Assembly (NCBI RefSeq): GCF_014596445.1
Contig: NZ_MECL01000158.1
Location: 1 to 64,000 of the forward strand
Source: Streptomyces sp. CBMA29
Lineage (GTDB): Bacteria; Actinomycetota; Actinomycetes; Streptomycetales; Streptomycetaceae
DNA length: 64,000 nucleotides
Reading direction: 5' to 3'
A model generated the notes under the pieces. The model saw only the letters and a program-made list of their open reading frames with translations. It was not told the DNA's origin and did no database searches. Positions 24,288 to 46,378 of this stretch are shown here, in pieces (position 1 is the first letter of the stretch; the number at the start of each line of letters is the position of its first letter). Position numbers and translations under genes: made by a program.

Positions 24288-24395
24288 TCCGGCCGAAGGC
24301 CAACCCCGCGGTTGACAAAGCATCGGGGCGAGCGAGCCCGAGATCGGCTCCCTCGCCCCCGGACCCCCGGGAGCCCGCGATCGGAAGGAGCACGG

Positions 24396-27300: not shown

Positions 27301-27398
27301 TCGCAGGCATCGACCTCGACGCCGAGGCCACCTGCCGCCGCACGGCCCGCGCCGCAGCTCTGTCCTGGATCACTCGTTCCCAAGGAGTACCTCGGTGA
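24396..27398 (+). CDS. lanB: Lantibiotic dehydratase, full-length LanB
   Basis: A 1000-residue LanB. The N-terminal part is the tRNA-Glu-dependent glutamylation domain (YLVRMRYRATPFGLFAGSTT is its hallmark, then VHRGSRHRAYACADATWLHE). The C-terminal 250 or so residues are the SpaB_C / thiopeptide-type elimination domain (STDWAYLKVYGSEARVPDVL, ESWFIRYADPDAHLRVRL). Together these should dehydrate Ser and Thr of the precursor. ATG 24396 has GGAAGGAG 6 bases upstream. The LanC start codon overlaps its end. Confidence 0.93.
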   Translation: MYQQIDAGMIRMSVFPLTSTTPSWPGESATLEQIRTWLKEVWADVPRAEAIGHAAPLLTSAVRTAIDGTARPARLRRTGRAAARYLVRMRYRATPFGLFAGSTTVSFGQEAHVHRGSRHRAYACADATWLHEITAALEHDPAVLPRLTVVTDPTCTVRGARIVVAHQPGTDGPTDTSLRRTRAAETALGIARSPVQVRDLVDKLHAGYPDTPKPVVQEMVRDLVSHRVLLTGLQPPMTCTDTLGHLIARLDEAGATTRTAQLRPIQRLLHLHDHASTEDQPRLRAEAAEAMTAITRGTASPLMVNVRPDCDVVLPDEVAREAERALAVMARITPYPQGSPAWSDYRARFLERYSMGSVVPVRELTDPDTGLGFPVGFRGTVLPRPVLATTPRDEHLLALAQDAALTDKREIVLTDGDMEALSLGEPAQVPAHVELCFSVLALSARALTEGRFNLSTVGLSLAAGTLTGRFLPMLEPAELAQVAAGYTALPTLTDGAVRTQISAPPLKRQTHNVGRAPLLAPEALSVGEHNPDATLGLDDLGVTADSAQLYLVSLLSGRIIEPTVMNAVELSTATHPLVRFLSELHRSHAAILIPFAWGAAARLPFLPEVRYGRTILSGACWRLHARDVTEPREWTKHFTNWRIRYGVPRTVTVGSDDKQLRLDLDLAADRDLLRAEVDRHGTVVLHEAPEESAFGWIGHAHEVTVPFAANQQPVPHPTRGATYVREAARIPGSTDWAYLKVYGSEARVPDVLTAHLPRLLAELENITESWFIRYADPDAHLRVRLRLAATDAFGPVTREVAAWAAELSEEGLIHRVQWDTDQPETGRYGTGAALAAAETYFAADSTAALAQMRLAVPADLRPGVTAASFVDIASGLLGSRSAGRDWLIRHLPRSDAAPAPRPAQALALRLTDSDGPRAVLGGLAGGDAVGSTWTERREALARYRQALDAQGITPSTVLPSLLHMHHNRVAGIDLDAEATCRRTARAAALSWITRSQGVPR

Positions 27399-28546
27399 CC
27401 ACCGCCCCGTCCGGCACCGACGCCTCGCTGTCTGCTCGGCAGTCCTTCGCACACGGTCCCCTCGGTACCGCCTTGCTGGCCGTCGAGCGGGCACGCCGCG
27501 GTACCGGCGACTGGCACGACGTGCACCGCGTACTTGGCGAGATCGGCCCGCTGATGGGCGGACCTGACGCAAACCTCTTCCTCGGCGCCCCGGCAATGGC
27601 CTTCGTCCTCCACCTCGCCGCCGACGGCACGAACCGATACGGCGGCGCACGGCGCACCCTCGACGGCATCGTGACCACCCACACGCATCAGCGCCTGGCC
27701 GCGGCACACGCCCGTATCGACGCCGGACGGTCCCCGTCGTTCGCGGAGTACGACCTGTTCCGCGGGCTGACGGGCATCGGCGCCCTGCTCTTGCTCCGGT
27801 CGCCCAACAGCCCCGAACTCAATAGCGTCCTGGAGTACCTCGTACGCCTCACCGAGCCCGTCGTCGACTCCGCCAGCGGCGAGTCCCGGCCCGGCTGGTG
27901 GGTCGCACACGCCCCGGCCAGCGACCCGACGGCCACCCCCGGCGGACACGCGAACGCGGGCATGGCGCACGGCATTACCGGCCCCCTTGCTCTCCTCGCC
28001 CTGGCCAAACGCGCGGGCGTCACCGTGGCCGGGCACGACGGCGCCATGGTCCGGATCTGCCGGTGGCTCGACCGGATTCGCCAGAGCGACCACGGTGGTC
28101 TTCGCTGGCCGCGATGGATCAGTGCCAGTGGGCCCGCTCCAGCTCTCCCGTGTACGCCGTCGTGGTGCTACGGAACTCCAGGACTCGTTCGCGCACAGCA
28201 ACTCGCGGCCATCGCTCTTGGCGACAATGATCGCAAACGGATGGCTGAACGGGCGCTGCTCCGCTGTCTGACCAATCCGTCCGAACTCTCCAGGGTCGCC
28301 GACCGCGGTCTGTGTCACGGCGTCGGCGGCGTCCTCCGGACCGTCCAGCGTGTCGCAGAGGACGCCGACGACCCGACTGCTTTCGCCCGCCACCTCGGCC
28401 CCCTCGCCGTCCGGTTCCTGATGGCCGAGACTCCGCAGGAAGGCGGATTCCTGGTCGGAAGAGCCGGAGCCGTCCTCGGCTTCCAGGACGCCGAATGCGG
28501 CGCCGCGCCCCAGGGTCGGTGGGACGCCTGCCTCCTCCTGGCCTGA
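27395..28546 (+). CDS. lanC: Lanthionine synthetase C-like cyclase
   Basis: A 383-residue LanC-family protein that should add Cys thiols to dehydrated residues. The zinc ligands expected of LanC are present: Cys in PSWCYGTPG and the Cys-His pair in RGLCHGVGG. The conserved block GGHANAGMAHGITGPLALLA lies before them. GTG 27395 overlaps the LanB stop by 4 bases (GTGA), implying translational coupling. Confidence 0.92.
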   Translation: MTTAPSGTDASLSARQSFAHGPLGTALLAVERARRGTGDWHDVHRVLGEIGPLMGGPDANLFLGAPAMAFVLHLAADGTNRYGGARRTLDGIVTTHTHQRLAAAHARIDAGRSPSFAEYDLFRGLTGIGALLLLRSPNSPELNSVLEYLVRLTEPVVDSASGESRPGWWVAHAPASDPTATPGGHANAGMAHGITGPLALLALAKRAGVTVAGHDGAMVRICRWLDRIRQSDHGGLRWPRWISASGPAPALPCTPSWCYGTPGLVRAQQLAAIALGDNDRKRMAERALLRCLTNPSELSRVADRGLCHGVGGVLRTVQRVAEDADDPTAFARHLGPLAVRFLMAETPQEGGFLVGRAGAVLGFQDAECGAAPQGRWDACLLLA

Positions 28547-29534: not shown

Positions 29535-30597
29535 GTTGCCCGCCCTCCTGGGCTGATGACGACCCCCGACGACGTCCTCGCCCAGGCCCTGTGGCATGCG
29601 TTGCGAGCCCTCCTGGGCTGATGACGACAGCTGGCGGGCGGTACGCCGCCCACGCTGCCCACGGGTTGCGAGCCCTCCTGGGCTGATGACGACCGGCGCA
29701 CCAAGCCCAGTCGAGCGGGCGGAAAGCGTGTTGCGAGCCCTCCTGGGCTGATGACGACGCTGGCGGCCCGCTACGCGTACGTGCACGGGATCGGGTTGCG
29801 AGCCCTCCTGGGCTGATGACGACCAGCAGCATCTGCATGCCGTCCAGGCGTGTCCTGTGTTGCGAGCCCTCCTGGGCTGATGACGACGGCGGCCACACTC
29901 GTGCTCGCCCTGGCCGAAGCCCGGTTGCGAGCCCTCCTGGGCTGATGACGACCGTACTGGCCCGCGATCTTCGCGGCCACCGGCAGCCGTTGCGAGCCCT
30001 CCTGTGCTGATGACGACGACGATGTCGGTCGTGCTGTCCCTGGACAGCTACGAGTTGCGAGCCCTCCTAGGCTGATGACGACACCGGTCGTCGTGCAGCC
30101 GGGCCCACTCGGGCATCGGTTGCGAGCCCTCCTGGGCTGATGACGACCGGCAACCTGCACGGCATCGGAGGCCAGCAGATCACGTTGCGAGCCTCCTGGG
30201 CTGATGACGACCTCCAGCAGCGCGCCGTACTCGCGCGCACCGTACTGGTTGCGAGCCCTCCTGGGCTGATGACGACGCGCAAGGCTCGGCGTAAGGACCG
30301 TGCCCACCGCGGTTGCGAGCCCTCCTGGGCTGATGACGACCGGCTGGGGTTCGGCCGGTCAGGCGATGTCGAGGGGTTGCGAGCCCTCCTGGGCTGATGA
30401 CGACCCTGGTCGAGGATCGTCAGCGCGTCGGTCCGGGCGCGTTGCGAGCCCTCCTGGGCTGATGACGACGACGGTGGAGATCAGCCCGGAGGAGTGGGCG
30501 CGCACGTTGCGAGCCCTCCTGGGCTGATGACGACGTCGGACACGGTGGTGGGTGACGGGCGGGCGCGGGTTGCGAGCCCTCCTGGGCTGATGACGAC
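29535..30597 (-). CRISPR. CRISPR array 1, 17 repeats of 29 bases
   Basis: Plus-strand repeats begin GTTGCGAGCCC and end GGGCTGATGACGAC. Starts are at 29535, 29600, 29665, 29730, 29795, 29859, 29924, 29989, 30054, 30119, 30184, 30248, 30312, 30376, 30441, 30506 and 30569, giving 16 different spacers of about 34-36 bases. The leftmost repeat is degenerate (GTTGCCCGCCC), as at a leader-distal end. The repeat at 30184 lacks one C; those at 29989 and 30054 have single changes. The leader lies on the right, so transcription should run leftward, away from cas6. I recognised none of the spacers' targets. Confidence 0.98.
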
Positions 30598-30979: not shown

Positions 30980-31669
30980 GTGCGGTTGAGAGTGGATGTC
31001 GAGGCCGATACGCCGACGTTGCGGTGGGAGGATGTGCACGGTCCGGCGCGGGGCGTCGTGTACGGGCTGTTGCGAAGCCAGGATCCCGAACTGGCTCAGT
31101 CGTTGCATGACGTCGGGTGGCGGGGGCATCCGCTGAAGCCGATCGGGCTGACGGCTCCCCAGTTTCGAGGGGCTCGGCGACAGCGGGGCGAGTACACGAC
31201 CTCGTCCGACGGTTCCATGTGGTTCGGCTCTCCCGTTCCGGAGATTGCGGCTGTGCTTGTTGCCGCGCTCGCTTCGCGGACGGAAATTGAATGGGGGGCG
31301 ACGCGCCTGCGGTTGCGCGGATTCACCGTCGATATGGGCGCCACAACTGTCGGCGGCGTGGTTGAGCTGGCGACCGCAACTCCCGTCGTGATCAGACACG
31401 AGGGCCATGATCTGCTTCCCGGTGATGAGCATTATGTCGAACGGTTGGAGCACAACCTGGTCCATAAAGCGGATGTGCTGGGCATGCCCGCGCCGCAGGG
31501 CCTGCGCGTGCTGGAGGGCGGTCCGCGACGGCGGTTCACCGTACGGGGAGCGCCACGGATCGGGGCGCAGGTGCGGGTGTCGATGGAAGCCGAGGCACCC
31601 TACGTGGACGCACTTCGGTCGTGGGGGCTCGGGCTCGACACGGTGCAGGGGTTCGGATGGATCCGGTAG
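30980..31669 (+). CDS. cas6: CRISPR-associated endoribonuclease Cas6
   Basis: Cuts the array transcript within each repeat to give crRNAs. The 229-residue protein begins as a ferredoxin-like Cas6 (MRLRVDVEADTPTLRW). It carries His43 and His50, both possible catalytic residues, in a segment followed by PLKPIGLTAPQF. It ends with the glycine-rich loop LGLDTVQGFGWIR of the family. GTG 30980 is the first start before the conserved strand. The cas8 start at 31657 overlaps its end, so translation is coupled. Confidence 0.88.
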   Translation: MRLRVDVEADTPTLRWEDVHGPARGVVYGLLRSQDPELAQSLHDVGWRGHPLKPIGLTAPQFRGARRQRGEYTTSSDGSMWFGSPVPEIAAVLVAALASRTEIEWGATRLRLRGFTVDMGATTVGGVVELATATPVVIRHEGHDLLPGDEHYVERLEHNLVHKADVLGMPAPQGLRVLEGGPRRRFTVRGAPRIGAQVRVSMEAEAPYVDALRSWGLGLDTVQGFGWIR

Positions 31670-33084
31670 CCGTGGCGAGCACGACCAGACACCTGACCGC
31701 GACGAGCCATCCCCTGCAGCGGGCCGGCGCGTGGGCCGTGTGCGTGATGGCTGGTCGCGCAAGCGCGGGCCAGATGGTCGCTGCGGACCTGGACGCTGTC
31801 GCGACGCGCATCGTGGAGGACGTCGCGGAAGCGGCGTCGGCGGACAAGGACACACCGCGTTACGACTGGTGGAAAGTTCTGTTCGCGCTGTATCCGAATT
31901 CGAAGGCGACCCATGCCAGCCGCCCTCGTGACCGCACCGTACTCAAGAGCGCCCTCGTGGAGATGTTCGCACCCGACGATCACGATCGTCCCGTACGGCC
32001 GTGCACCTTTTGTGGCGCGGGCTCCACGTCGATTTGGGCGAAGTCGATGCTGCCGATGTTCGATACGAACAAGGCGCTCAATACGCTGCCCCCTGGGCTG
32101 GCTGGATGGCCGGTGTGTCGAGGCTGTCGCCTGGCGATGTGGGCGCTGCCGTACGGATCGTGGGTCACGGCGGGATCGGCGACGGTCTTGTCGTGTGAAC
32201 AGGATTCGGCGGAACGAGAGTTCGCCGAGCGCAATGTGGTCAGGGCACGCCGGATCATGCACGCGGGCTTCACGGGCCTTGTGGCGGGTGTACGGCCGGA
32301 ACTGGTCACCCTCCGGGCCTTGCGCAATGCCGGGCCGGACCTGTCGGCGACCACCTTGTGGAGTTTCAAGAACGACAACCAGGAGCCATGGCTGCGTGTG
32401 ACACGTACTCGCCGCGCGGTTCCGACCTTCCTGGCTGCGGTCCAGGGCAACGCGCCGCTGCGCCGTGGATGGCGGCTGCTGGAGACAGCCCTGACCCAGC
32501 GGGACAAGAACGGTCAGGTGACCGTCGGCGGTCCGGCCGAGGCGGCACGGCTGCTGTTCGAGGCGGAGGACGGACGGAGCCGGTCGCTGTCGCGGCAACT
32601 GCACGACCTGCTCTGGGACACCGATCGGTGGCGCAGCCAGGACCGTGCGGCCCTGACTCGCCTTGCCTACAGCTACGAGAAAGAGGTTCACGGCATGGAG
32701 CCGAACCTGAGCGGGGTGGCGACTCTGATCGCCGACTGGATCGAGCACGGCAGCGGCAGCCCTCGCGGCCGTCTGGCCGAATATCGCAACGCCGGGCTGA
32801 ACGGCTATCGGCTGGGCGCGCTCCTCTACCAGGCCAGCTTTCGTCTCAAGTTCGACGGCAGGGCCGTCACGATCAGCGCCGAGGAGTGGAAACCGCTGGT
32901 GACGCAGCGGCCCCGCGCCTGGGAGCAGCGGATGTTGCTGGCCGCCGAAGTGCTGAGGATTCTGGACCAGCGCGGGGTGGTGGTGAACACTCCTCCGGCC
33001 GACGAGCGCGAGCGCGAGCAGGTCGAACAACTGATGCGGGAGCCGATTCTCGCTCTTCACGACGACGAACTGGGACCGGCGTAA
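31657..33084 (+). CDS. cas8: Type I-B large subunit Cas8 (Cst1-like)
   Basis: A 475-residue protein in the position of the Cascade large subunit. It has two CxxC pairs forming a zinc-finger-like pattern (PCTFCGAGSTS and WPVCRGCRLAMWAL, about residues 103-150), as in Cst1/Cas8b of the Tneap-type I-B systems. Sequence similarity in this family is low, so the call rests on these cysteines, length and gene order. ATG 31657 lies inside the end of cas6. Its TAA overlaps the cas7 start. Confidence 0.82.
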   Translation: MDPVAVASTTRHLTATSHPLQRAGAWAVCVMAGRASAGQMVAADLDAVATRIVEDVAEAASADKDTPRYDWWKVLFALYPNSKATHASRPRDRTVLKSALVEMFAPDDHDRPVRPCTFCGAGSTSIWAKSMLPMFDTNKALNTLPPGLAGWPVCRGCRLAMWALPYGSWVTAGSATVLSCEQDSAEREFAERNVVRARRIMHAGFTGLVAGVRPELVTLRALRNAGPDLSATTLWSFKNDNQEPWLRVTRTRRAVPTFLAAVQGNAPLRRGWRLLETALTQRDKNGQVTVGGPAEAARLLFEAEDGRSRSLSRQLHDLLWDTDRWRSQDRAALTRLAYSYEKEVHGMEPNLSGVATLIADWIEHGSGSPRGRLAEYRNAGLNGYRLGALLYQASFRLKFDGRAVTISAEEWKPLVTQRPRAWEQRMLLAAEVLRILDQRGVVVNTPPADEREREQVEQLMREPILALHDDELGPA

Positions 33085-34154
33085 TGACGTATCTCGCAGG
33101 CAAGATGGTGCTCGCGATCGAGGCGGGCGCACCCAACAACGGCAAGAGCGAGGACACCACGGCACGGGTGAAGTTCGCGACCGTGCGGGGTCGACGGCAC
33201 CCGTATGTTTCGGCTCAGGCGGTGCGCCGGTGGATCCGGGACGGCATGGTCGAGCAGGGCTCGGTGCCCTCACCTGTGACACGTGTCGGCAAAGCCCAGA
33301 ACCGGGCACAGAAGGCGAACACCGACGCGGACCCGATCCACTATGCCGACGACGACCTCTTCGGCTACATGCGGGCCGGGGCCAAGAAGGAAGACGCGGC
33401 GACGACGCTGCGGGACAGCCCGTTCATGCTCGGCACGTTGATGTCGGTCGCACCGGTGTATCCCACGGAGGACTTCGGTGTGATGTCGCGAGGGGTGAGC
33501 GAACCCGTACTGCACGGCCACGAGTTCTACACCGCGGACCTCGCCGCGCCCTTCCTGCTCGACCTCCCCCGCATCGGCACTTTCACGCTGCCCACAGCGG
33601 AGGGAGTCGGACGGCCGAACTACCTCAGCCAGGAAGAGGCATTGCGGGTCGCCGCCGCTGCCGCAGCAGGCGCGACAGCGGTGACGTTCCGCGACCAGCC
33701 CGCGGTACGGCTGCCGATCGCGGAGCGCAGCAGGCGTGCGGCAATGTTGCTGGAATCGCTTGCCCATCTCAGCGGGGGCGCCAAAAAGGCGCTGCACTAC
33801 GGCGACCGGGTCCCCTCTGTCATTGTGCTGGTGCCGTTCAAGGGCGGCATCAATCCGCTGGCCAACTGCGTCGACGGCGAAGAGGGGGTGGGCCTCAGGA
33901 TCCGCGGCGATGTTCTTCGCAAGGAGCTGGCGGCATGGGACGGTGAATGGGAAGCTCCGGTCCGGATCGGCTGGCGCCCCGGTTTCCGGGACGATCTCCG
34001 CGAGGACTTCGAGAAGGAATGCGCAGTCGAACTCGGTGAGAAGTCCATCGTGATCGACCATCCCCGCACCGTGCTGCGCAGGTTGGCGGCTGATCTCCGC
34101 GACGGCAAACTCAACGCCTGGTTCGACGACCCCGCGGATGCCCCCCGTGCCTGA
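33084..34154 (+). CDS. cas7: Cascade backbone protein Cas7 (Cst2/DevR family)
   Basis: A 356-residue RAMP protein that should polymerise along the crRNA. The start MTYLAGKMVLAIEAGAPNNG fits the Cst2/DevR pattern. The middle contains DSPFMLGTLMSVAPVYPTED and FGVMSRGVSEPVLHGHEFY. ATG 33084 shares its A with the cas8 stop (TAATG). Its last 17 bases overlap the cas5 start. Confidence 0.88.
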   Translation: MTYLAGKMVLAIEAGAPNNGKSEDTTARVKFATVRGRRHPYVSAQAVRRWIRDGMVEQGSVPSPVTRVGKAQNRAQKANTDADPIHYADDDLFGYMRAGAKKEDAATTLRDSPFMLGTLMSVAPVYPTEDFGVMSRGVSEPVLHGHEFYTADLAAPFLLDLPRIGTFTLPTAEGVGRPNYLSQEEALRVAAAAAAGATAVTFRDQPAVRLPIAERSRRAAMLLESLAHLSGGAKKALHYGDRVPSVIVLVPFKGGINPLANCVDGEEGVGLRIRGDVLRKELAAWDGEWEAPVRIGWRPGFRDDLREDFEKECAVELGEKSIVIDHPRTVLRRLAADLRDGKLNAWFDDPADAPRA

Positions 34155-34848
34155 TGACGCGCTGCCGACCTGGCGGTTTGAGTTCTACGCCCCGGTGGCG
34201 TCCTTCCGGGATCCGCTCTTCCCCGGCCTTTCCCACGGTCTACCGGTGCCGCCGCCCTCCACCGTGCGGGGGATGCTGGCCGCAGCTACCGGCAAACCGT
34301 CAGAGCTGGTGCCGTTCGGCATGGCGTCCTACGGCGACGGCAATGGCGTCGACGCCGAGACCTACCACCCCATCGACGCCGGCGGAGCGAACCGGGCCGT
34401 GTCCGGCCGGGTCCGGGCGGGGAAGGGCGGAATGACGATTCGCGACCGGCCGTTCCTCGTCGGCGTGCATCTGACGGTGTGGATCCCAGGACGGGACGGC
34501 GACCGTATCGAGCAGGCGCTGCGCCGCCCACGCTGGGCGCTGCGCCTGGGACGCTCGCAGGACATCGTTCACCTGCGGGAGCGGTGCCAGGTGGCCTTGG
34601 AGCCCGCAAGCGATGCTGTGGTCGACCATGCATTGGCGCCAGTGGGCAGTCACGCCGCACCGTCCGCCGTCGTTCACCGTTTGGCGTCCGCGGTATCCAC
34701 CGACCGTCTGACCACGACTTGGGCCGACTACCAGTGGTGCGAGGAACAGACAGGCAATTGGCCCGTGTCAGGCGCTTATCGAGAACGAACCGTGCCAGGG
34801 CAAGACCGTGATCTACCGGGGAGGGCTGTATGGCTGCTCACCCCGTAG
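34138..34848 (+). CDS. cas5: CRISPR-associated protein Cas5
   Basis: A 236-residue RAMP protein capping the 5' end of the crRNA in Cascade. The N-terminal signature is WRFEFYAPVASFRDPLFPGL, followed by LPVPPPSTVRGMLAAATGK, the conserved Cas5 block. It overlaps cas7 at its start and cas3 at its end. Confidence 0.88.
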   Translation: MPPVPDDALPTWRFEFYAPVASFRDPLFPGLSHGLPVPPPSTVRGMLAAATGKPSELVPFGMASYGDGNGVDAETYHPIDAGGANRAVSGRVRAGKGGMTIRDRPFLVGVHLTVWIPGRDGDRIEQALRRPRWALRLGRSQDIVHLRERCQVALEPASDAVVDHALAPVGSHAAPSAVVHRLASAVSTDRLTTTWADYQWCEEQTGNWPVSGAYRERTVPGQDRDLPGRAVWLLTP

Positions 34849-37250
34849 CTCCCGTCACTCGACGGCGCGGCCTCACGGAAGTACGGGCGAAATCCACACC
34901 GCCAGCGGACCCGGAACGGCTGACCACGCACTCACGCACCGTCCACGACACAGTTGCGCAGATCGAGACCCGCAGCGGGCAGGCGGGGATCCTGGCAACC
35001 GACCCCGCATTCTGGCGGCGAGTGCGCCACGCCGCGCTGCTCCACGACACGGGCAAGGTCGCCGAAGGCTTCCAGCAGCAACTCTTGCCCGGTCATGACG
35101 CCTGGGGGCAACGGCACGAGGTGCTGTCACTCGCGTACGTCGATATCCTCGGCGCCACGGCAGGCTGGAGTGACCAAGATCGGTTCATGGTGGCGACACT
35201 GGTCGCCACCCACCACCGGGCACTGCACTCCGCATCATCCGACAGCGGCGGCAAACCGGCCTTGTCCCAGCTCTACAACGAGCACACCGACTGGAGCGAG
35301 GCCTTCAGCCTCGCTCCAGGCGCCACCCCCGGCCAGCCCCAAGTCCAGGTCACCAAAGGCCTGCACGGCGAACTACTCGCCTGGTTGAGCGGCTTCCTCA
35401 GCATGGACCCGCCGCTTGGTACCCCGAGAGGGCCATCCCTGGCGGAACGGTCGCGTCTACTGCTTCAGCAGCTCCTGGACACCTGGCGCCAGCCCGTCAA
35501 ACCCGATCAAGGCCTTCTCGCCGTTCTCGCCCAAGGTGCGCTGACTCTCGCCGATCACGCCGGTTCCGCCCACGTGGATCTCCAGACGCACATGCCGCTC
35601 CTACCGGACTACCTGAACCGTCTCCCCTACCCGGCATACCCGCACCAGCAGCAGGCCGCCACCACCCGGGGCCATCTCATCCTGGTCGCTCCCACCGGCA
35701 GCGGAAAGACCGAGGCCGGACTGGCCTGGGCAGCAGAACAGCTCTCCACCATGCCGGGACAGCCCCGGCTGGTGTGGACGCTGCCGTACCGCGCATCCCT
35801 CAACGCAGTACGCCGACGCTTCGAACGAGACCTGGTGCCGCCGCCCGGCCAGCGAAAGCCCGACATCGGTCTGCTTCACGGCACCGTCGCCCACACACTG
35901 CTCACCCAGTCCACGGACGACGACTGCTCCGCCGGCACGCCAGCGGCAACCCCGACCGCCGAGCAAGCCCGCAAAGCACGAGCGCAGGCCGGCGCCATGC
36001 GCTTGTTCACCCAACGGCTCCGCGTGGCCACGCCCCACCAGCTCCTGCGCGGCGCCATCGCCGGCCCCGTCTACTCCTCCGTCCTACTCGAACAGGCCAA
36101 CTCGCTCTTCGTCCTGGACGAGCTGCATGCCTACGATCCCGCCACGTTCGGCCGCCTGTGCGCTGCCATGCGCCTGTGGGAGCGACTCGGCAGCCGGGTG
36201 GCCGTCCTGTCCGCCACCCTCTCCAAGACGATGACCGGCATCATCGACGAGAGTCTGGAGCAGGGCGTCACCGTCCACGAAGCTCCGCAAGGCACCAGCC
36301 CCGTGCGGCACCGGCTCGTCCTCGACGAGAAGCCGTTCGATGCTCCGGAGAGCATCGAACGGCTGCGCACCTGGCTCAGGGAGGGATACAGCGTTCTGGC
36401 GGTGACGAACACTGTCAACGGTGCCCAGAGTCTCTTCGACCAGCTCTCCGCAGAAGCTCGCGAAGCCCGGCCTGGCGATCCCTACGCCGCGCTGCTGCTC
36501 CACTCGCGCTTCAAGAACCGTGATCGCGGCCTGATCGAGAAGAGCCTGCTGCAACGCCACCCCGAGCGGCATCCGGACGAGGGCGCTCATCGCGGCGGCC
36601 TGGTCGTCGCCACCCAGACGGTCGAAGTGTCGTTGCAACTCGACTTCGACCGGGGTGCGGTGGACAACGCGCCGATCGAGGCGGTCGCCCAACGCGCCGG
36701 CCGGGTCAATCGCCGGGGTCTCCACCCCGACGGCCCCTCCGAATTCCGCGTTCACCGCACAGAAGGACACCGGCCCTACGACGCCGACGCGGTCGACGCC
36801 GCCTGGTCCGCGCTTACCGATCTGGATTCCCAGGGCTCTGACACGCTCAGCGAACAGGACATCGAACGCCTGCTGGCCCATGCCTACGACACACCGTGGG
36901 GCCGGAAATGGGAGATCGAGGCCAGGCGCAGCCGCGACGCTTTCACCGCACAGTTCCTGACCTTCACCGACCCGTTCCACGACCGCAGCGAATTCGCCAA
37001 GGCCCTCAACGAGCAGTTCGACAGTGTCGAAGTCCTGCATCGCGACGACGCCGACGAGTACCGGAGTTTGGCCCTGGGCAAGAAGGGCGATCCCCTGCTC
37101 GCCGCAGGGCTGCTCATCCCGTTGCGCTACCGCCAACTCAAGCAGTATCAGGCCGAGTTCGATCGCCGCTTGGGCGTACACCTCATCGTCGGCGACTACG
37201 ACCCGGTCACCGGTCTGCGGCCCCCGTCCGAACCGGAAACCATCCTGTGA
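34830..37250 (+). CDS. cas3: CRISPR-associated helicase-nuclease Cas3
   Basis: An 806-residue fusion of HD nuclease and SF2 helicase, which degrades target DNA recruited by Cascade. HD-domain residues are in ALLHDTGKVAEGF, GQRHEVLSLAY and VATHHRALHS. Helicase motifs are VAPTGSGKTEAGLAWA (Walker A), FVLDELHAYDPATF (DExH-like), VLSATLSKTM and VAQRAGRVNRRG. ATG 34830 is 13 bases after GGGGAGG. It overlaps the end of cas5, and GTGA couples it to cas4. Confidence 0.95.
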   Translation: MAAHPVAPVTRRRGLTEVRAKSTPPADPERLTTHSRTVHDTVAQIETRSGQAGILATDPAFWRRVRHAALLHDTGKVAEGFQQQLLPGHDAWGQRHEVLSLAYVDILGATAGWSDQDRFMVATLVATHHRALHSASSDSGGKPALSQLYNEHTDWSEAFSLAPGATPGQPQVQVTKGLHGELLAWLSGFLSMDPPLGTPRGPSLAERSRLLLQQLLDTWRQPVKPDQGLLAVLAQGALTLADHAGSAHVDLQTHMPLLPDYLNRLPYPAYPHQQQAATTRGHLILVAPTGSGKTEAGLAWAAEQLSTMPGQPRLVWTLPYRASLNAVRRRFERDLVPPPGQRKPDIGLLHGTVAHTLLTQSTDDDCSAGTPAATPTAEQARKARAQAGAMRLFTQRLRVATPHQLLRGAIAGPVYSSVLLEQANSLFVLDELHAYDPATFGRLCAAMRLWERLGSRVAVLSATLSKTMTGIIDESLEQGVTVHEAPQGTSPVRHRLVLDEKPFDAPESIERLRTWLREGYSVLAVTNTVNGAQSLFDQLSAEAREARPGDPYAALLLHSRFKNRDRGLIEKSLLQRHPERHPDEGAHRGGLVVATQTVEVSLQLDFDRGAVDNAPIEAVAQRAGRVNRRGLHPDGPSEFRVHRTEGHRPYDADAVDAAWSALTDLDSQGSDTLSEQDIERLLAHAYDTPWGRKWEIEARRSRDAFTAQFLTFTDPFHDRSEFAKALNEQFDSVEVLHRDDADEYRSLALGKKGDPLLAAGLLIPLRYRQLKQYQAEFDRRLGVHLIVGDYDPVTGLRPPSEPETIL

Positions 37251-37786
37251 GCGCGCCCGGCGACACCCCGTACGGCCCCGCCCAGCCCGATGGCGACAGC
37301 GCGTCGTTGGGCGGCGTCCACATCAAATATCTCCACCACTGCCCGCGCCAGCTCTGGCTCTACGGTCGCGGCTACCGCCCCGAACACCGCAGCGAACTGG
37401 TCGCCTTCGGGGAAGTCGTCGACGACACCACCTTTATCCGGCGCCGCGACATCGACCTCGGCGAAGCCAAAATCGACTGGGTCACCACCGGGGCCATCGT
37501 CCACGAAACGAAGTCCTCGCGCGCCCCATCCCCGGCGCACGCCGCACAAGTCCGCCACTACTGCCTCTTGCTGGAGCGCCGGGGAATCACTGTACGAGGC
37601 GGCACCGTCCATTACCCCCTGATCCGCCGCACCACCGACGTGCCGTGGGACGACGACGCCCGCGCCGAAGCCGAGAACGCCGAAGCCCAAGCTCACGCCG
37701 TATTGGCCGCGACCACGCCGCCGCCACATCTCGCACGAAGAGAGTGCCGGGGCTGTTCCTATCTCGACTACTGCTGGGGAGACTGA
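37247..37786 (+). CDS. cas4: CRISPR-associated exonuclease Cas4
   Basis: A 179-residue RecB-like nuclease that trims and orients prespacers. The iron-sulfur cysteines are in YLHHCPRQLWLYGRG and the C-terminal CRGCSYLDYCWGD. The nuclease motifs GAIVHETKSS and AAQVRHYCLLL (QxxxY type) are present. GTG 37247 overlaps the cas3 stop; its own stop overlaps the cas1 start (TGATG). Confidence 0.93.
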   Translation: MSAPGDTPYGPAQPDGDSASLGGVHIKYLHHCPRQLWLYGRGYRPEHRSELVAFGEVVDDTTFIRRRDIDLGEAKIDWVTTGAIVHETKSSRAPSPAHAAQVRHYCLLLERRGITVRGGTVHYPLIRRTTDVPWDDDARAEAENAEAQAHAVLAATTPPPHLARRECRGCSYLDYCWGD

Positions 37787-38766
37787 TGGCCGCCGTCGGC
37801 CGCACCTACTGGTTGACCGAACCGTGCCGCATCCGCCGTGAAGACAACAGCGTCCGCGTTGAACGCCCCGACGGAAGCCCGGTCCGCATTCCCATCACCG
37901 ACATCCGCGACTTGATCGCCTTCGACCACATCGACATCAACACCTCCGCCCTGTCCTTGCTCAGCCGCAGTGGAGTCACCCTCCACGTTCTGGACTACTA
38001 CGGGAACCACGCCGGCCACTTCAGCCCGGCGGAGTCCATGGCCTCCGCCAGCGTCGTCAGACGCCAGGTCGAGATCACCGCCGACCCGGCTACCCGCACG
38101 GCAATCGGCCGCTCGCTCGTCCTCGCCACAGCGGAAAACCTCCGCTGGGCTTTGGATACCGACCTGCTCGACCTCGCCCTACAAACCCTGCGCACCGCCC
38201 TTCCCGACTGCCAGGACAGTGACGCAATCATGGGCCAAGAGGGCAACTACCGACGCACGGCTTGGGCGGTCCTCGACACCCAACTCCCCGCCTGGCTGCG
38301 CCTAAACGGCCGCACCCGCCGACCGCCGACAAACGCGGGCAACGCCTTCGTGAGCTACCTCAACTCGCTGGTCTACGCGCGCGTCCTCACCGCCCTGCGC
38401 AGCACGCCACTGCATCCGGCCATCGGCTTCCTCCACTCCGACACCGACCGCCGACGCAACACCCTCGCCCTGGACCTGGCCGAACCCTTCAAGCCCCTCT
38501 TCGCCGAACGGCTCCTCAAACGCACGGCCGCCCAAAAACACCTCAAGGCCAGCGACTTCGAAACCGACGTCGGCCGCGCTTCTCTGAGCAAGGACGGCCG
38601 CAAGAAAGTCGCCGCGCTCGTCCGGGAGGAACTCTCCACCACCGTGTTCCATCGCACCCTCAAACGCCAGGTCAGCTACGAAGAGCTCATCCACCTCGAA
38701 GCCCTCAAACTCGTCCGAATGTGCCTGGAAGAGAAGCCTTACAAGCCGTTCCGGCCCTGGTGGTGA
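37786..38766 (+). CDS. cas1: CRISPR integrase Cas1
   Basis: A 326-residue type I-B Cas1. Catalytic metal ligands are Glu in AIMGQEGNYRRTAW, His in IGFLHSDTDRRR and Asp in TLALDLAEPFKPLF. The N-terminal beta domain reads LISFDH-like as DLIAFDHIDINTSALSLLSR. It ends KPYKPFRPWW and then TGA, directly followed by C. The cas2 reading frame continues in the same frame after this stop. Confidence 0.95.
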   Translation: MAAVGRTYWLTEPCRIRREDNSVRVERPDGSPVRIPITDIRDLIAFDHIDINTSALSLLSRSGVTLHVLDYYGNHAGHFSPAESMASASVVRRQVEITADPATRTAIGRSLVLATAENLRWALDTDLLDLALQTLRTALPDCQDSDAIMGQEGNYRRTAWAVLDTQLPAWLRLNGRTRRPPTNAGNAFVSYLNSLVYARVLTALRSTPLHPAIGFLHSDTDRRRNTLALDLAEPFKPLFAERLLKRTAAQKHLKASDFETDVGRASLSKDGRKKVAALVREELSTTVFHRTLKRQVSYEELIHLEALKLVRMCLEEKPYKPFRPWW

Positions 38767-38772
38767 CCGGAA

Positions 38773-39036
38773 ATCTTCGTCATCCTCGTCTACGACACCG
38801 CCGCCGAGCGCAATCCGAAGGTTCTCAAAACCTGCCGTAAATACCTCCACTGGACCCAACGCAGCGTCTTCCAGGGCGAACTCACCGCCGCCCAATACCG
38901 GGCCCTCATGGCTGCTCTTGCCACGACCATCGACGTGGACTACGACAGCATCGTCACCTACAAGGTCCGCTCCCCGGACATGATCGAATCAACAACCGTC
39001 GGAGTCGCCCTCGGTGGCCCAGGCGACATCCTCTGA
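38773..39036 (+). CDS. cas2: CRISPR integration protein Cas2, no canonical start codon
   Basis: An intact Cas2 coding sequence of about 88 codons: IFVILVYDTAAERNPKVLKT, then TQRSVFQGELTAAQYRALMA, ending GVALGGPGDIL. The catalytic-site Asp of VYD is present. It lies in the same frame as cas1, separated only by TGA, CCG and GAA. Where MFVILVYD is expected, the first codon is ATC, and there is no ATG, GTG, TTG or CTG before the catalytic Asp. The first in-frame ATG is inside ALMAAL, too late for function. It may start weakly at AUC, arise by readthrough of UGA-C as a Cas1-Cas2 fusion, or be inactive. Confidence 0.88.
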   Translation: MFVILVYDTAAERNPKVLKTCRKYLHWTQRSVFQGELTAAQYRALMAALATTIDVDYDSIVTYKVRSPDMIESTTVGVALGGPGDIL

Positions 39037-39124: not shown

Positions 39125-39868
39125 CTCGTCATCAGCCCAGGAGGGTTCGCAACACGGCGGCATCCGCGGTCCGCCGCCAGACGCGGCGCACCTCGTCATC
39201 AGCCCAGGAGGGTTCGCAACCCCACCAGATCGCCGAGTACCACGACGTGCAGCTGACTCGTCATCAGCCCAGGAGGGTTCGCAACGCAGTCCGCCGTCCG
39301 CGCCCTGCGACATCGAACGCCCTCGTCATCAGCCCAGGAGGGTTCGCAACGCGATCCACGCGGCACATACGGCGGCGACCTGGACCCTCGTCATCAGCCC
39401 AGGAGGGTTCGCAACTGGCACACCACCTTGGGCCAGCGTCCGCTGGTCGACTCGTCATCAGCCCAGGAGGGTTCGCAACACGTTCTCTTCTGGCATGACG
39501 AATAGAAGAACTCGCCTCGTCATCAGCCCAGGAGGGTTCGCAACTAGGCGGGGCGTGGCGGAATGGCCAGGAAGTCGGCCCTCGTCATCAGCCCAGGAGG
39601 GTTCGCAACGAGACAGGGCCGCCGGTGTGGACGTGGTGGGCGAAGCTCGTCATCAGCCCAGGAGGGTTCGCAACCGCCGGATGACCTCTTCGTAGCTGCG
39701 CAAGCTCCCACCTCGTCATCAGCCCAGGAGGGTTCGCAACTGGCTCCAGTACCTCGGCCAGGCCCCCGGCCGCCACTCGTCATCAGCCCAGGAGGGTTGC
39801 AACGCGTTCTTGGTGACCGAAACGTGCTCCCGCTCCCATCTCGTGAACAGCCCCAAGAGCGCCGCCAC
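39125..39868 (+). CRISPR. CRISPR array 2, 11 repeats plus one decayed repeat
   Basis: Plus-strand repeats of 29 bases begin CTCGTCATCAGCCC and end GGGTTCGCAAC. Starts are at 39125, 39192, 39257, 39322, 39387, 39451, 39516, 39581, 39646, 39712 and 39776, with spacers of about 35-38 bases. The repeat at 39776 lacks one C. A decayed copy (CTCGTGAACAGCCCC) follows at 39840 with normal spacing and marks the old end. Compared with array 1 in the same sense, the repeats differ at two positions (8 and 29). Transcription should run rightward, away from cas2. Confidence 0.98.
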
Positions 39869-41240: not shown

Positions 41241-42074
41241 TCATCGCGGTGAGCGGATTACTGACCGGTGGCGAGTCTCGCCGCAGCGCTCCGAAGCTGC
41301 TTTCAACCGCTCGGCGGCTGCGTCGAGTTCAGCGGCGAAGGTCGGCGTGGTCACCTTCGCCCAGTCCCCGCCTTCTTCTGCCAGCCACCACCAGGTACTC
41401 GCGTAGCGGACGTATTCGGGAAGGGACGGGCTGAGCGGTCGGGCTTCACCGACGCTGATCGCCCGTTCCATGGCTTCGACGTCCAACTGGTCCGAGGTGG
41501 AGGGCCCGCTGGCACCCATGACGAGGGTCAAGGGCGGGATCCGAGCCCAGGGATCGGCCCGCGCCCATCTCGCCTGGAGCTCGGGGGACTGCGCCGCGAG
41601 GTCACCGAGCGGGACATGCCCCGTACGGCAGCCGGCCGCGTAGTGGGAGGCGGTGCTGGCGATGACCGTACGCAGCTCGATGTGCCAGTAGCGCGCGGCC
41701 TGGCCGGAAGGCTGCGCGGCGGAGTAGATCTCGTGCCGCCAGAGCATGAGCGCCCACAGTTCCTCGATCAGTCCGGGGTGCTCCGCCCAGCAGTCGGGAA
41801 GCCGCGACTCGACGGCGAGTTCGTACCGGTCATAGAGCCAGGTGACCCAACCACGTAGCTCTGTCCACGCCGTGTCGCGCTCGGCCACCGACATGCTGTG
41901 CCATTCCGTCAGCGACAAGGACGGCTGCCCGGCACGGCGCCCGACGGCAGTCCGCTCCCCCGTCGCTCCAGGCCGCGGTCGCGGACGACGAACACGTGGT
42001 CGGCGCTTGAGACGGCGGATGACCGCGAAGGAAGGGACGCCCGGAGACAGCCCGCTGGAATCGACGGCGCTCAT
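41241..42074 (-). CDS. Hypothetical protein of the conjugative element (277 aa)
   Basis: A 277-residue protein with a basic, Arg/Pro-rich N-terminus (RRLKRRPRVRRPRPRPGATG) and a helical centre (WYWHIELRT-like ARYWHIELRTVIASTASHYA). The C-terminal segment (VRYASTWWWLAEEGGDWAKV) is shared with the small protein encoded just downstream. The start at 42074 overlaps the TraG-like stop by 4 bases, so it is translationally coupled to it. I do not recognise a named family. Confidence 0.7.
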   Translation of the reverse strand: MSAVDSSGLSPGVPSFAVIRRLKRRPRVRRPRPRPGATGERTAVGRRAGQPSLSLTEWHSMSVAERDTAWTELRGWVTWLYDRYELAVESRLPDCWAEHPGLIEELWALMLWRHEIYSAAQPSGQAARYWHIELRTVIASTASHYAAGCRTGHVPLGDLAAQSPELQARWARADPWARIPPLTLVMGASGPSTSDQLDVEAMERAISVGEARPLSPSLPEYVRYASTWWWLAEEGGDWAKVTTPTFAAELDAAAERLKAASERCGETRHRSVIRSPR

Positions 42075-43864
42075 AGCGTCTTCCTCCGACGGTAGTTGCG
42101 GGCCCACTCGACCGACTCCGCGTACGCGTCCCGGTCCGGCCCTTCGTAGTGGCGCTCCATCCGCACCTTGACCGCTGGCGTCGTCGCGTGGAACACGAGG
42201 GCTTCGCGGTCCAGCTCGTCGAGGACGCGGATCTCCTCCGGGGTCAACGTCTTTCGGTCCTGGAGGGTGGTCTGGATCGTGGTGCCGTGCACACCGGTCT
42301 GATAGGTCGTCAAGGATTCGCGGTACGTGCCCGCCAGGTCGCTGAACGCGTCGAGTTCTTTGCCGGACAGGCCGCCGAGGGCCACCTTGATCGTCGCCGA
42401 GCCCCAGAGCATCTCGGCACCATCGATACCCCAGCGCTTTCGCGCCTGTGCCTGGCTCTGGAGGACGGCCAGAACAAAGATGCCGGTTCCGCCCGCGAAT
42501 GAGATCAGCTCGGGCAGGTGGGGCAACGGGCTGACGTTGGCGACCTCGTCCAGGAAGAGGCCCAGGGGCGGGTCGAGCCGCCCGCCCGGTGACTCGTTGG
42601 CGATCCTCGTCCCGGTCTCGATCACCTCGTCCACGAAGGCCGAGGTCAGTGGAGCGAGGGCCTTCGCCTGCTTGTCCTTGACCAGAAGGTAGATCGTTCC
42701 GCCGGCTCGCAGCCATTGTTCGATGTCCAACCCTTGGCCGTCGTCAGGGACGAAGGTGTGTTTGGCCGCGCGGGAGAACAGCGGGGTCAGCGCCGTCTGC
42801 ACCGTGGTGAAGAGGTTCGAGCGCGTCTCACTCGGGTTTCGGTACAGGGAGTCGAGCATCTTGGCGACGCCGGGTTCGGCGCCCGGAGCGTTGGCCAGGA
42901 ACTTCACCGACTCGTCCAGCGAGGCGTTGAAGCCCCATTCCAGGACGTGGGCCATGGTCCGGCCGGTTAGCGCGGCGGTGTGCAGCCACGCGGCCAACAA
43001 CGAGGTCGCGGTGAGCCCGAAGTAACCCGAGCCGCTGGAGTCGATCGACGTCTCCGACTTGCCGACTGTAACCATCACATCGGCCCGTTCCATGGCCTTC
43101 CCAAAGTCCTCGCACCCCGAGGTGGGCGACCACTGGACCTGGTCGGGCCAGTCGACCATGCCGGTCGGAGCCATGACGAGAACAGGCCCTCGGGAGCGAC
43201 GGAGAAGAGCGGTGTTCGTCAGGACATCGGGCCTGATGCTGGTCACCAAGGCCGGCCCGTTCCAGGACCGCAACCAGGGGATCACCACTTGGGACGTCTT
43301 GCCCTGCCGCGGGGCAGCGAGCACGATCACGCTGCTCTCGACCGCAGCCCAGAGCAGCGTTCCGCTGACAGCTCGGCCCAGAAGTACGGCGACGTCATGC
43401 GGTCTGATCTTCGCGCCTCGTAGCGAGGGGCGAATCGTCGTGCTCCGGCGGACGACGGCCCTGCCGGACATCGCGCGGTCCAACTGCGCCGTCGAAGCGA
43501 AGCCGCGTACCGAGCGCCCGCGGTTGACGAGCCGGAACACGGCGGCGATCAGCGCGACGAGTCCTGTGACCACCAGGACGGAGGAGACCGCGAATCCTCC
43601 ACGACCGGGAAGGTCGGACCGCACGGTCCGTGGCCACGCCAGCTTCGGATTGTCGAGGTGGTGCGGCAGCTCCCGCGCCACGGCGAAGGACCGGCCGAAG
43701 GCAACGGGCGGCCATCGCGCGTGCGTGAGGAGCCCGGCGAGTTGGCCCGTGGCCCACGTACCGACCGTGATGAGCGCGACCCCGAGTATCAGCAGGACGA
43801 TCAGGTAGTCCGTCGGCTCCGCGAGGAGCGGTCGCCGTGCGACGGTGGAGTTGCCGGAGGCCAT
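42071..43864 (-). CDS. Conjugative coupling protein, TraG/VirD4-like ATPase
   Basis: A 597-residue membrane-anchored ATPase of type IV secretion that delivers DNA to the channel. Two N-terminal membrane segments are visible (YLIVLLILGVALITVGTWAT and VSSVLVVTGLVALIAAVFRL). Walker A is VLAAPRQGKTSQVVIP and Walker B is LGLFLDEVANVSPLP. The C-terminal ATPase part includes AVLQSQAQARKRWG. It looks intact, unlike other genes of the element. Confidence 0.88.
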   Translation of the reverse strand: MASGNSTVARRPLLAEPTDYLIVLLILGVALITVGTWATGQLAGLLTHARWPPVAFGRSFAVARELPHHLDNPKLAWPRTVRSDLPGRGGFAVSSVLVVTGLVALIAAVFRLVNRGRSVRGFASTAQLDRAMSGRAVVRRSTTIRPSLRGAKIRPHDVAVLLGRAVSGTLLWAAVESSVIVLAAPRQGKTSQVVIPWLRSWNGPALVTSIRPDVLTNTALLRRSRGPVLVMAPTGMVDWPDQVQWSPTSGCEDFGKAMERADVMVTVGKSETSIDSSGSGYFGLTATSLLAAWLHTAALTGRTMAHVLEWGFNASLDESVKFLANAPGAEPGVAKMLDSLYRNPSETRSNLFTTVQTALTPLFSRAAKHTFVPDDGQGLDIEQWLRAGGTIYLLVKDKQAKALAPLTSAFVDEVIETGTRIANESPGGRLDPPLGLFLDEVANVSPLPHLPELISFAGGTGIFVLAVLQSQAQARKRWGIDGAEMLWGSATIKVALGGLSGKELDAFSDLAGTYRESLTTYQTGVHGTTIQTTLQDRKTLTPEEIRVLDELDREALVFHATTPAVKVRMERHYEGPDRDAYAESVEWARNYRRRKTL

Positions 43865-44160
43865 TCATGTCCCTACTGTCTTGGGTTCGTTGCGGACAGG
43901 TCCGTCTGGCCGACCTGGGAGGCCAGGTCGGACAGGGTTCACTCGAAGGCGCGAAGAATCCGTTGTTTCGTCGGGAATCCCGAAGCCTCGGCGGTATCCC
44001 TGACGTATGCGCCCATTTGGTGAACGAAGCGGCCGATGACACTGGCCGTGGTCCAGAATGAGTGCTCATAGCGGCGATGGCCGTAGGCGGCCCGGCTGGT
44101 CGCACATGGCCCAAGCCGGCAGCCCGAGAGTCCGGTGAACGTTCCCGGGATACTGGCGTC
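43865..44160. other. Intergenic region, possible gene remnant
   Basis: About 296 bases. On the minus strand 43939-44070 reads FWTTASVIGRFVHQMGAYVR and then DTAEASGFPTKQRILRAFE before a stop, which looks like the C-terminal end of a protein. No start or upstream domain can be found, so I treat it as a possible remnant only. Confidence 0.3.
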
Positions 44161-44685
44161 ATGGCCGTCACCCAACAGCTCGCCCGCATCCCGGCGGAGT
44201 ACCTCGCCACGTGCCGCCAGTCCGCTGGCATGTCGCCGGGCCGCGAACCCCATTGGGATCCGCCGACATACGACGTGCTGGACCTGGACTGGGCTCCGAA
44301 ACTGCTGGAGCGAGCCGGCGAGATTGCCCGGCTCGACGAGGTCCATCTGGATGCTCTCCGCTGGGCCACAGACGGCGACACTGCTCTCGACCTGGCCTTC
44401 CTCAACACCCATCCGCACGCCATCGCCCCCTTCGGACCCGCCCCCACAGCTCTGTCCGCCCCTCAAGTGGCGCGTGTCTCCGAACTGCTTGGCCAGATCA
44501 ACATGCTTGCCCTTCTCGATGCCCTGCCGACCGACGACCGCGAAGCCGGATCCTTGATCGGGCACGGGGCCACCGAGATCACCGGAGGTCCGAGGGCATA
44601 CCTGCTGAGGCACTTCAACGCTCTCCGCGACTTCTACCTTGACGCGGCGAAGCGCCACCTGCTCGTCGTGCTCTGGTGGGACTGA
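44161..44685 (+). CDS. DUF1877-family protein
   Basis: A 174-residue protein of the DUF1877 (YfbM-like) family: MAVTQQLARIPAEYLATCRQ, then VLDLDWAPKLLERAGEI, LDLAFLNTHPHAIAPFG and the C-terminal FYLDAAKRHLLVVLWWD. Such proteins are common in Streptomyces; function is not established. It is the only plus-strand gene among the conjugation genes, so it may be a passenger. Confidence 0.85.
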   Translation: MAVTQQLARIPAEYLATCRQSAGMSPGREPHWDPPTYDVLDLDWAPKLLERAGEIARLDEVHLDALRWATDGDTALDLAFLNTHPHAIAPFGPAPTALSAPQVARVSELLGQINMLALLDALPTDDREAGSLIGHGATEITGGPRAYLLRHFNALRDFYLDAAKRHLLVVLWWD

Positions 44686-44875
44686 ACCGGGACCAACCCA
44701 GCCGTCCCAACCACGAGCAACCGCGCAAGCACGTGACTGCAGGGCTCGGGATTTGCGTGACTGTCCATACGGCCAGCCGCCGGTTCCCCAACCGGCGACC
44801 CCACATAGGCTCTTCACGACGCTCACCCCCTGGGTTCCAACCGCTGGACGCTTCAGAATTGACGAACCCACGGGC

Positions 44876-46378
44876 TTAGACAGCCATGCGCTCGTTGGTG
44901 TAGTAGAGCTGGCGCTCCAGCGGCGAAAGGATCGCCTGGACGACGTGAGAGCTGGACCGGCCGATCTTCCAGATAGCCCGTCCGATCTGCTCGCCGCTCC
45001 ACGACGCGATGTGCGCGCACTCCGTGTCGGTCAGGCCGATGACCTCGCGCGTCATCGCCAAGGGTTCAGTGTCCTGGCGCAGACAGATCCGTACGTCGCA
45101 TGACGCGATCAAATTGCGCGCGATGCTGACCTCTTCGCTGCCCGCCGCGCCAACGGCCTCGAAGTCGGCCAGCCTGTGCGTGCTCAGCACCTGGATGGTG
45201 CCCTGAGCACGACTCAGGCGCAGGTCGGAGTCGAGCTTGCGGACCATCGCGGGTACGCGCATGGCGCGCCAAAGCTCGTCCCGTACGACGAGCCGTACGG
45301 GGCCGCCCGGTTCGTCGATGGCTGCTTGCCCCCAACTGGACACGCAGGCCAGGGTCATCGCCACGGTGTCGTCGCCGCGGCCGTCGATCCGGCTGAGGTC
45401 GACGGTCTGGATCGGGGCGTCGAAGTCCGGTCGTACGGTCGTCGGGCCGTCGAAGAGCCCGCTGAGCGAGCCGCGCACCATGTTGCCCAGGGCGTCGGCG
45501 GCCGGGCGGATCATCTCGCGGAGTTCGGCGATGCTGCGGTCGCGGATCCGCAGTTCCTCGGCCATCTCGGGAAGGGGATCACGCAGAAGGGTCCACACCT
45601 GCGGGATGGTCGGGTCGGCCAGTGTGGTGTTGGCGGTCGCCTGCCCTGAGGCGTGGTGAATGGCGAGGGAAAGTGCCGCCTCCTCCGTCGGGGTGAGATC
45701 GCGCCCGAGACGCATCACCAGGAGAGAGGAGAGGAGGGTGATGCGGCGGCGATGGATCTCGTCCAAGCGCTCGCGGAGCGCCTCCGGGTCCGCGGGGAGA
45801 TTGTGGCCCAACGGCCCGGAGTCCAAGGGGTTGAGGCGATTACGCAAGCCGGGGCCGAGTTCGACAGGGTCGACGCCGAAGGCACGCGCGAGCGGCGCGT
45901 ACTCGTTCTTGATGTCCCCGAGCACGAACGTACGCACGCCGTACGCGGCGAGCCGGGTCACCAAGGACTTCACGGTGGCGGACTTGCCCGCGCCCGGCAC
46001 GCCGGTGATCAGCATGTTGGGGTTGGTGATCAGACCTCGGTGGAGCCACTCGATCGGGTGGCAGGAGAACGCGCCGCCGCTGAGGCAGTCGACACCGACG
46101 TAGACGCCGACGGGCGGCATCGACGCACCGTACAACCACGGGTAGAGAACCTGCACTTGGCCGGTGCTGCCGCGGAAGACGGGGACGGGAGGCGTGATCG
46201 GCGCCCGACCGGCGAAGGGCCGGGCCCACCCTCGTCGCGGCGGGATCGGTTCCTTGCGCGCCTTCGGCGGCTTGGGCGGTCGTACGCGCTGGGGCGCGGC
46301 GGCAGGCGTACCGAGCACCTGGCCGAGGTCGAACGCCGGGAGGTCGGCGGACTTCTTATGCGGCAAACGCGGGCTCAT
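44876..46378 (-). CDS. VirB4/TraC-like conjugation ATPase
   Basis: A 500-residue ATP-binding protein. Walker A is LITGVPGAGKSATVKSLVTR, and VRLVVRDELWRAMRVPAMVR is the Walker B region. VLSTHRLADFEAVGAAGSEE and ASCDVRICLRQDTEPLAMTR follow, as in the lower half of actinobacterial VirB4-type ATPases. It should energise pilus or channel assembly. It starts 3 bases after the SCO6880-like gene ends, in the same operon. Confidence 0.82.
   Translation of the reverse strand: MSPRLPHKKSADLPAFDLGQVLGTPAAAPQRVRPPKPPKARKEPIPPRRGWARPFAGRAPITPPVPVFRGSTGQVQVLYPWLYGASMPPVGVYVGVDCLSGGAFSCHPIEWLHRGLITNPNMLITGVPGAGKSATVKSLVTRLAAYGVRTFVLGDIKNEYAPLARAFGVDPVELGPGLRNRLNPLDSGPLGHNLPADPEALRERLDEIHRRRITLLSSLLVMRLGRDLTPTEEAALSLAIHHASGQATANTTLADPTIPQVWTLLRDPLPEMAEELRIRDRSIAELREMIRPAADALGNMVRGSLSGLFDGPTTVRPDFDAPIQTVDLSRIDGRGDDTVAMTLACVSSWGQAAIDEPGGPVRLVVRDELWRAMRVPAMVRKLDSDLRLSRAQGTIQVLSTHRLADFEAVGAAGSEEVSIARNLIASCDVRICLRQDTEPLAMTREVIGLTDTECAHIASWSGEQIGRAIWKIGRSSSHVVQAILSPLERQLYYTNERMAV

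Follow-up and report, generated by a model that had tools for sequence, protein, structure and literature searches.

The cas2 gene of a type I-B CRISPR-Cas locus in Streptomyces sp. CBMA29 carries ATC at the position of the first methionine of the Cas2 family, and comparison with related loci indicates that this codon very probably serves as a working, conserved and inefficient AUC start, at which initiation is probably sensitive to IF3. The locus lies in a window of 64,000 nucleotides (the whole stretch of DNA that was analysed), where it is arranged in the order array, cas6, probable cas8, cas7, cas5, cas3, cas4, cas1, cas2, array, with the following features:

29535..30594, minus strand: second CRISPR array, in the opposite orientation, with 16 repeats found; it lies upstream of cas6
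30980..31669, plus strand: cas6 (TIGR01877)
31621..33084, plus strand: probable cas8, by position
33084..34154, plus strand: cas7, Cst2/DevR, type I-B (TIGR02585)
34138..34848, plus strand: cas5 (PF09704 above its cut-off; the highest-scoring subtype model, I-B Cas5b, falls short of its own)
34830..37250, plus strand: cas3, with helicase and HD domains
37247..37786, plus strand: cas4, GTG start (PF01930)
37786..38766, plus strand: cas1, 326 aa, type I-B Cas1 (TIGR03641)
38758..38769, plus strand: Shine-Dalgarno-like TGGTGGTGACCG, comprising the last two Trp codons of cas1, its stop codon and three further bases
38773..38775, plus strand: putative cas2 start codon ATC at the Met position of Cas2, assigned from the sequence and its relatives
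38773..39036, plus strand: cas2, 87 codons and a stop codon (PF09827 / TIGR01573)
39128..39804, plus strand: CRISPR array adjoining cas2, 11 repeats and 10 distinct spacers, the last repeat degenerate

The assignment to type I-B is supported by the presence of Cas7 (TIGR02585) and Cas1 (TIGR03641) proteins of that type, together with cas3, cas4, cas5, cas6 and the arrays. The product of the open reading frame at 31621-33084 matches no NCBIfam or Pfam family, and this probable Cas8 subunit may therefore be a divergent Cas8b. The window Cas2 scores 60.2 bits against PF09827 (curated cut-off 23.8; profile positions 2-68) and 29.0 bits against the NCBIfam cas2 model TIGR01573 (cut-off 24.5), and both the VYD sequence, which we take to be the N-terminal motif of Cas2, and a full-length open frame of 87 codons are found in the window and in 15 relatives. 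The repeats of the two window arrays, read on the same repeat strand, differ at one position (GCGAGCC at 29535-30594, GCGAACC at 39128-39804).

From the end of cas1 into cas2 the window reads TGG TGG TGA (38764-38766) CCG GAA ATC (38773-38775) TTC GTC ATC CTC GTC TAC GAC, so that six bases separate the cas1 TGA from the ATC and the two genes share one frame. Direct reading thus bears out two points of a preliminary description of this DNA, namely that cas2 follows cas1 in the same frame and that it has no canonical start codon: ATG, GTG, TTG and CTG are absent in every frame between the cas1 TGA and the codon of the catalytic Asp, and the first in-frame NTG within the gene is the ATG at 38908, codon 46. 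The same description had placed the beginning of the gene at 38764, which is the cas1 stop codon; counted from the ATC, the open reading frame occupies 38773-39036 and remains open as far as the TGA at 39036.

Relatives of the window Cas2 were collected from genome contigs (75 loci) and from whole-genome searches of overlapping sets, with hits in 6 of 61, 17 of 394, 11 of 392 and 5 of 70 genomes. The 107 loci gathered include 92 that are distinct around the cas2 start, the window among them; five further loci (L109-L113), all with ATG, stand outside this count, and the plasmid relatives amount to two hits, both below 60% identity. At the Met position, 42 of the 92 loci have ATG, 29 GTG, 15 ATC, three TTG, and one each CTG, ATT and AAT, which makes 75 loci with NTG and 16 with ATC or ATT (ATY). 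The AAT belongs to a distant, misaligned Chlorobiota locus (L063), in which an ATG precedes that position by two codons. Streptomycetaceae account for all 16 ATY loci, and at 75% identity or more this family contributes 16 ATY and 11 NTG loci; assemblies named as S. lushanensis, S. violaceusniger, S. aidingensis and S. radicis are represented among the 16. The recurrence of ATC or ATT at the same codon in 16 distinct loci and many assemblies rules out a sequencing or base-calling error as the source of the ATC. A second Cas2 was not found in the window's genome (assembly 93.9% complete) by PF09827 or PF09707 search; in eight other ATY genomes, searched with PF09827 only, a second Cas2 occurs once (G514).

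In a protein tree of Cas1 plus Cas2, built from 78 of the 92 distinct loci (L082 and L094 being excluded individually, the others for low identity or for a missing or short cas1, and the partial L092 and L019 kept), the ATY rows fall inside one clade of 20 rows with support of 97/92, and four label changes are needed. The other four rows of this clade (L003, L004, L017 and L020) are all NTG, and one four-step reading is a single gain of ATY followed by three returns to NTG, in L003 with L004, in L017 and in L020. The starred branches of the protein tree force only two changes, and counts of changes cannot separate gain from loss. A DNA tree of 27 loci, weakened by the long branches of two damaged loci (L019 and L092), has five ATY-label changes and places L017 and L020 as sisters; a single ATY clade is not rejected (p-AU 0.154). 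Because the NTG loci L003 with L004, L017 and L020 are nested among ATY loci, AUC is dispensable.

The preliminary description had also held that Cas2 is otherwise intact and that selection may still act on it, and the comparison with the relatives agrees. Cas2 is 87 codons long in every ATY locus, and the median dN/dS over codons 2-87 is 0.144 for ATY pairs (119 finite values among 120 pairs) and 0.148 for NTG loci (36 pairs from nine Streptomycetaceae NTG loci, which are the 11 with at least 75% identity minus the damaged L092 and the masked L094). To judge from these ratios, Cas2 at ATY loci is under the same purifying selection as at NTG loci. Furthermore, across the 16 ATY loci the two codons before ATY are variable, whereas the ATY codon and those downstream of it are nearly fixed, which suggests that the ATY codon is under selection as a start; so sharp an edge of conservation at the Met codon would be unexpected for a fused or longer protein. 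Ile codons in these genes are mostly ATC (69 of 75 internal ones), and the conserved third base is therefore uninformative when taken alone.

A candidate ribosome-binding site is provided by cas1 itself, whose C-terminal Trp-Trp-stop codons (UGG UGG UGA) form the Shine-Dalgarno-like UGGUGGUGA. The duplex of the window site with the 16S 3' end is predicted at -11.0 kcal/mol, a value calculated with an assumed 16S sequence, the 16S 3' end not having been found in the draft genome of the window. With the same assumed tail, a duplex is predicted in all 16 ATY loci, at -9.6 to -15.7 kcal/mol. The window GGTGG lies 9 bases before the ATC and is found at the same spacing before NTG in L010, L014 and L085, so that the site is ordinary for this cas2 family; in fact, the window duplex is no stronger than those of NTG relatives. 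Ordinary type I-B pairs with ATG or GTG (L003, L004, L010, L085 and others) encode the same Cas2 family, with cas1 immediately preceding cas2 and with a Shine-Dalgarno-like Cas1 tail like that of the ATY loci; they differ in their canonical start codon. In eight of the 16 ATY loci, the window not among them, the site is extended to GGUGAUC (-14.8 to -15.7 kcal/mol), and this extension is absent from all 12 NTG rows with more than 75% identity, one of which is the Actinomadura locus L082, matched over 29 residues only and not counted among the 11 Streptomycetaceae NTG loci. As the eight loci are related, the pattern is only suggestive of a tie between the extension and ATY.

Initiation at AUC has a probable precedent in the same family. 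ATC occupies the start position of infC, behind CGAGGAGG, in all 15 genomes checked (L108 and L115-L128, the window's own genome included), nine of which carry ATY-cas2 and six NTG-cas2, and it is therefore probable that ribosomes of Streptomycetaceae use AUC elsewhere, at infC. In the window's genome the infC frame extends upstream without a stop and has a GTG in frame there, and ATC is assigned as the start because of the Shine-Dalgarno sequence and because infC starts with ATC in Streptomyces according to Feeney et al. (2017; PMC5472188). Like infC, cas2 has AUN at its start position, conserved among relatives and behind a Shine-Dalgarno-like sequence as defined with the assumed 16S tail. 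The infC genes of E. coli (AUU) and Streptomyces (ATC), as given in that source (PMC5472188), share with cas2 a near-cognate AUY start behind such a sequence. Unlike cas2, infC is essential and autoregulating and has a closer and better Shine-Dalgarno sequence (in the window's genome, GGAGG at a distance of 4 bases from the ATC), whereas cas2 belongs to immunity and follows cas1, and its control by IF3 is hypothetical.

The second comparison is with Streptomyces sigR, for which Feeney et al. (2017; PMC5472188) give a proven GTC start, repressed by IF3, and an annotated GTG that fell inside the Shine-Dalgarno sequence. On this account sigR resembles cas2 in having a conserved non-NTG start in Streptomyces and an extended Shine-Dalgarno sequence with a misleading GTG inside it, and in standing in an operon with a partner to which its ratio matters (PMC5472188); the misannotated GTG may be likened to the GTG found in six ATY loci, described below. 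It differs from cas2 in that the codon is GTC rather than ATC, in encoding a sigma factor and in resting on experimental proof, the case for cas2 being comparative only.

The preliminary description had offered, beside initiation at AUC, readthrough of the cas1 stop codon, by which the UGA would be suppressed and Cas2 would be the C-terminal part of a Cas1-Cas2 fusion. The arrangement of TGA, two in-frame codons and then ATY is indeed present in nine of the 16 ATY loci, the window included. Taken across all 16, cas1 stands in frame 0 relative to cas2 in nine, in +1 in six and in +2 in one; the cas1 stop lies 6 bases upstream and in frame in the nine, and 5 bases upstream and out of frame in five. 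No continuous or consistently read-through frame thus runs through these loci, and the three frame relations exclude a fusion by UGA readthrough as a mechanism common to them. The codons that follow the TGA are also unconserved (CCG, CCA, CCC, AAA, TCA, TCC), and NTG starts, for example those of L010 and L085, likewise have a TGA or TAG upstream at this distance. In L016 and L088, which have lost the cas1 TGA, the cas1 frame, which is not that of cas2, continues for 136 and 173 nt inside cas2 and gives Cas1 an added tail. With cas1 in another frame in seven of the 16 loci, and without its TGA in those two, readthrough is a highly improbable origin of Cas2.

It is similarly hard to credit a start at some codon other than ATY, either at an in-frame GTG inside the Shine-Dalgarno-like site or at a downstream codon such as the GTC of codon 3. 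An in-frame GTG does lie 9-12 bases upstream, inside that site, in six of the 16 ATY loci, where it could act as the start, and GTC starts exist in Streptomyces, sigR being an example (PMC5472188). An upstream start is impossible in the nine in-frame loci, the window among them, because of the in-frame TGA two codons upstream; in the six GTG loci the codon just before the ATC is an unconserved Ser, His, Pro or Thr codon, and in L088 the nearest in-frame upstream NTG is a TTG 60 bases away. Codon 3 varies among the 16 loci (GTC in 12, GTG in three, GTA in one), and it is the ATY codon that falls in the Met column of the Cas2 family. Initiation at AUC, by comparison, appears well supported by the conservation of the codon, the frame relations and the pattern of selection.

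The last option of the preliminary description, a recent or ongoing loss of adaptation in which the ATC would have inactivated cas2 and the gene would be decaying, is disfavoured by the same comparisons and is given very little weight here. Such a loss would agree with AUC being a poor start, and cas1 is damaged in L019 and L089, the former having no array. Against it, ATY is common to 16 distinct loci within the clade of 20 rows, the 87-codon frame is intact in all 16 and dN/dS equals that of NTG loci, the mark of purifying selection; moreover, the cas1 frame is full-length in 14 of the 16 ATY loci, an array of at least 3 repeats is present at 15 of the 16 in the DNA examined, and spacers differ between related species. 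In four related ATY pairs no spacer is common to both members at 75% identity (32 versus 24 spacers, 21 versus 28, 28 versus 28 and 2 versus 15), the third pair including L026, identical to L089, with its damaged cas1. Two NTG pairs likewise have no spacer in common (22 versus 7 and 32 versus 4), and turnover is therefore alike in both groups with nothing specific to ATY. The comparison is a coarse one, as the members of a pair are different species and recombination or another system may also change arrays. One spacer of the ATY locus L013 has a match in Streptomyces phage ZL12, agreeing at 30 of the first 32 spacer bases and at 33 of 39 over the full length, with a modest E-value (4e-3). The match begins at the first base of the spacer, and 5' of the protospacer stands TCG, which PMC12231136 includes among the PAMs that function in a Saccharopolyspora I-B system. 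No phage match was obtained for the spacers of the two window arrays or of the L022 and L023 arrays.

Under initiation at AUC, ribosomes would bind the Shine-Dalgarno-like sequence formed by the last cas1 codons (UGG UGG UGA), and the initiator fMet-tRNA would be set on the near-cognate AUC, or on AUU in one relative. In the window, Cas2 would be initiated six bases past the cas1 stop and would thus probably be coupled to the translation of cas1. Near-cognate start codons are weak and are discriminated against by IF3, so that the level of Cas2 would probably be lower than that of Cas1. The Cas1:Cas2 complex has a ratio of 4:2, which a lower level of Cas2 would fit. The Cas2 level may also track IF3 activity, as infC and sigR do in Streptomyces, and the rare AUC start perhaps keeps Cas2 output low or regulated. 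From sequence comparison we infer initiation at AUC and, with it, the coupling to cas1, the response to IF3, how much Cas2 is made and whatever advantage throttling may bring. A wider proposal, which we consider doubtful, is that CRISPR adaptation of a Streptomycetaceae clade belongs to the IF3 regulon, with AUC holding Cas2 low and a drop in IF3 releasing it; if this were true, spacer acquisition would keep step with changes in the translation apparatus, such as those under stress, during sporulation or upon phage takeover.

Few conserved non-NTG starts have been proven (infC and sigR are the examples encountered here), and a further one in a gene of immunity suggests that spacer acquisition is throttled at the level of translation. 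Among the matches listed in a search of open-licence papers, no title or opening of an abstract reports a non-NTG start of cas2; the match that combines cas2 with a non-canonical start concerns the TTG start of cas4 in Francisella (PMC13034035). Near-cognate starts are known; that one should be conserved in a gene of CRISPR adaptation seems to be new. In ATY genomes, cas2 may be overlooked or given a wrong start by gene callers that accept only ATG, GTG and TTG.

Lanthipeptide genes (Lant_dehydr_N and C, then LanC-like) are found just upstream of the CRISPR locus, at 24312-28543 of the window. Downstream of the array, on the minus strand at 42074-46378, there are conjugation-type genes for a TraG/TraD-like coupling protein and a P-loop ATPase, both matches being weak and below cut-off, and the CRISPR locus may lie beside an integrated conjugative element.
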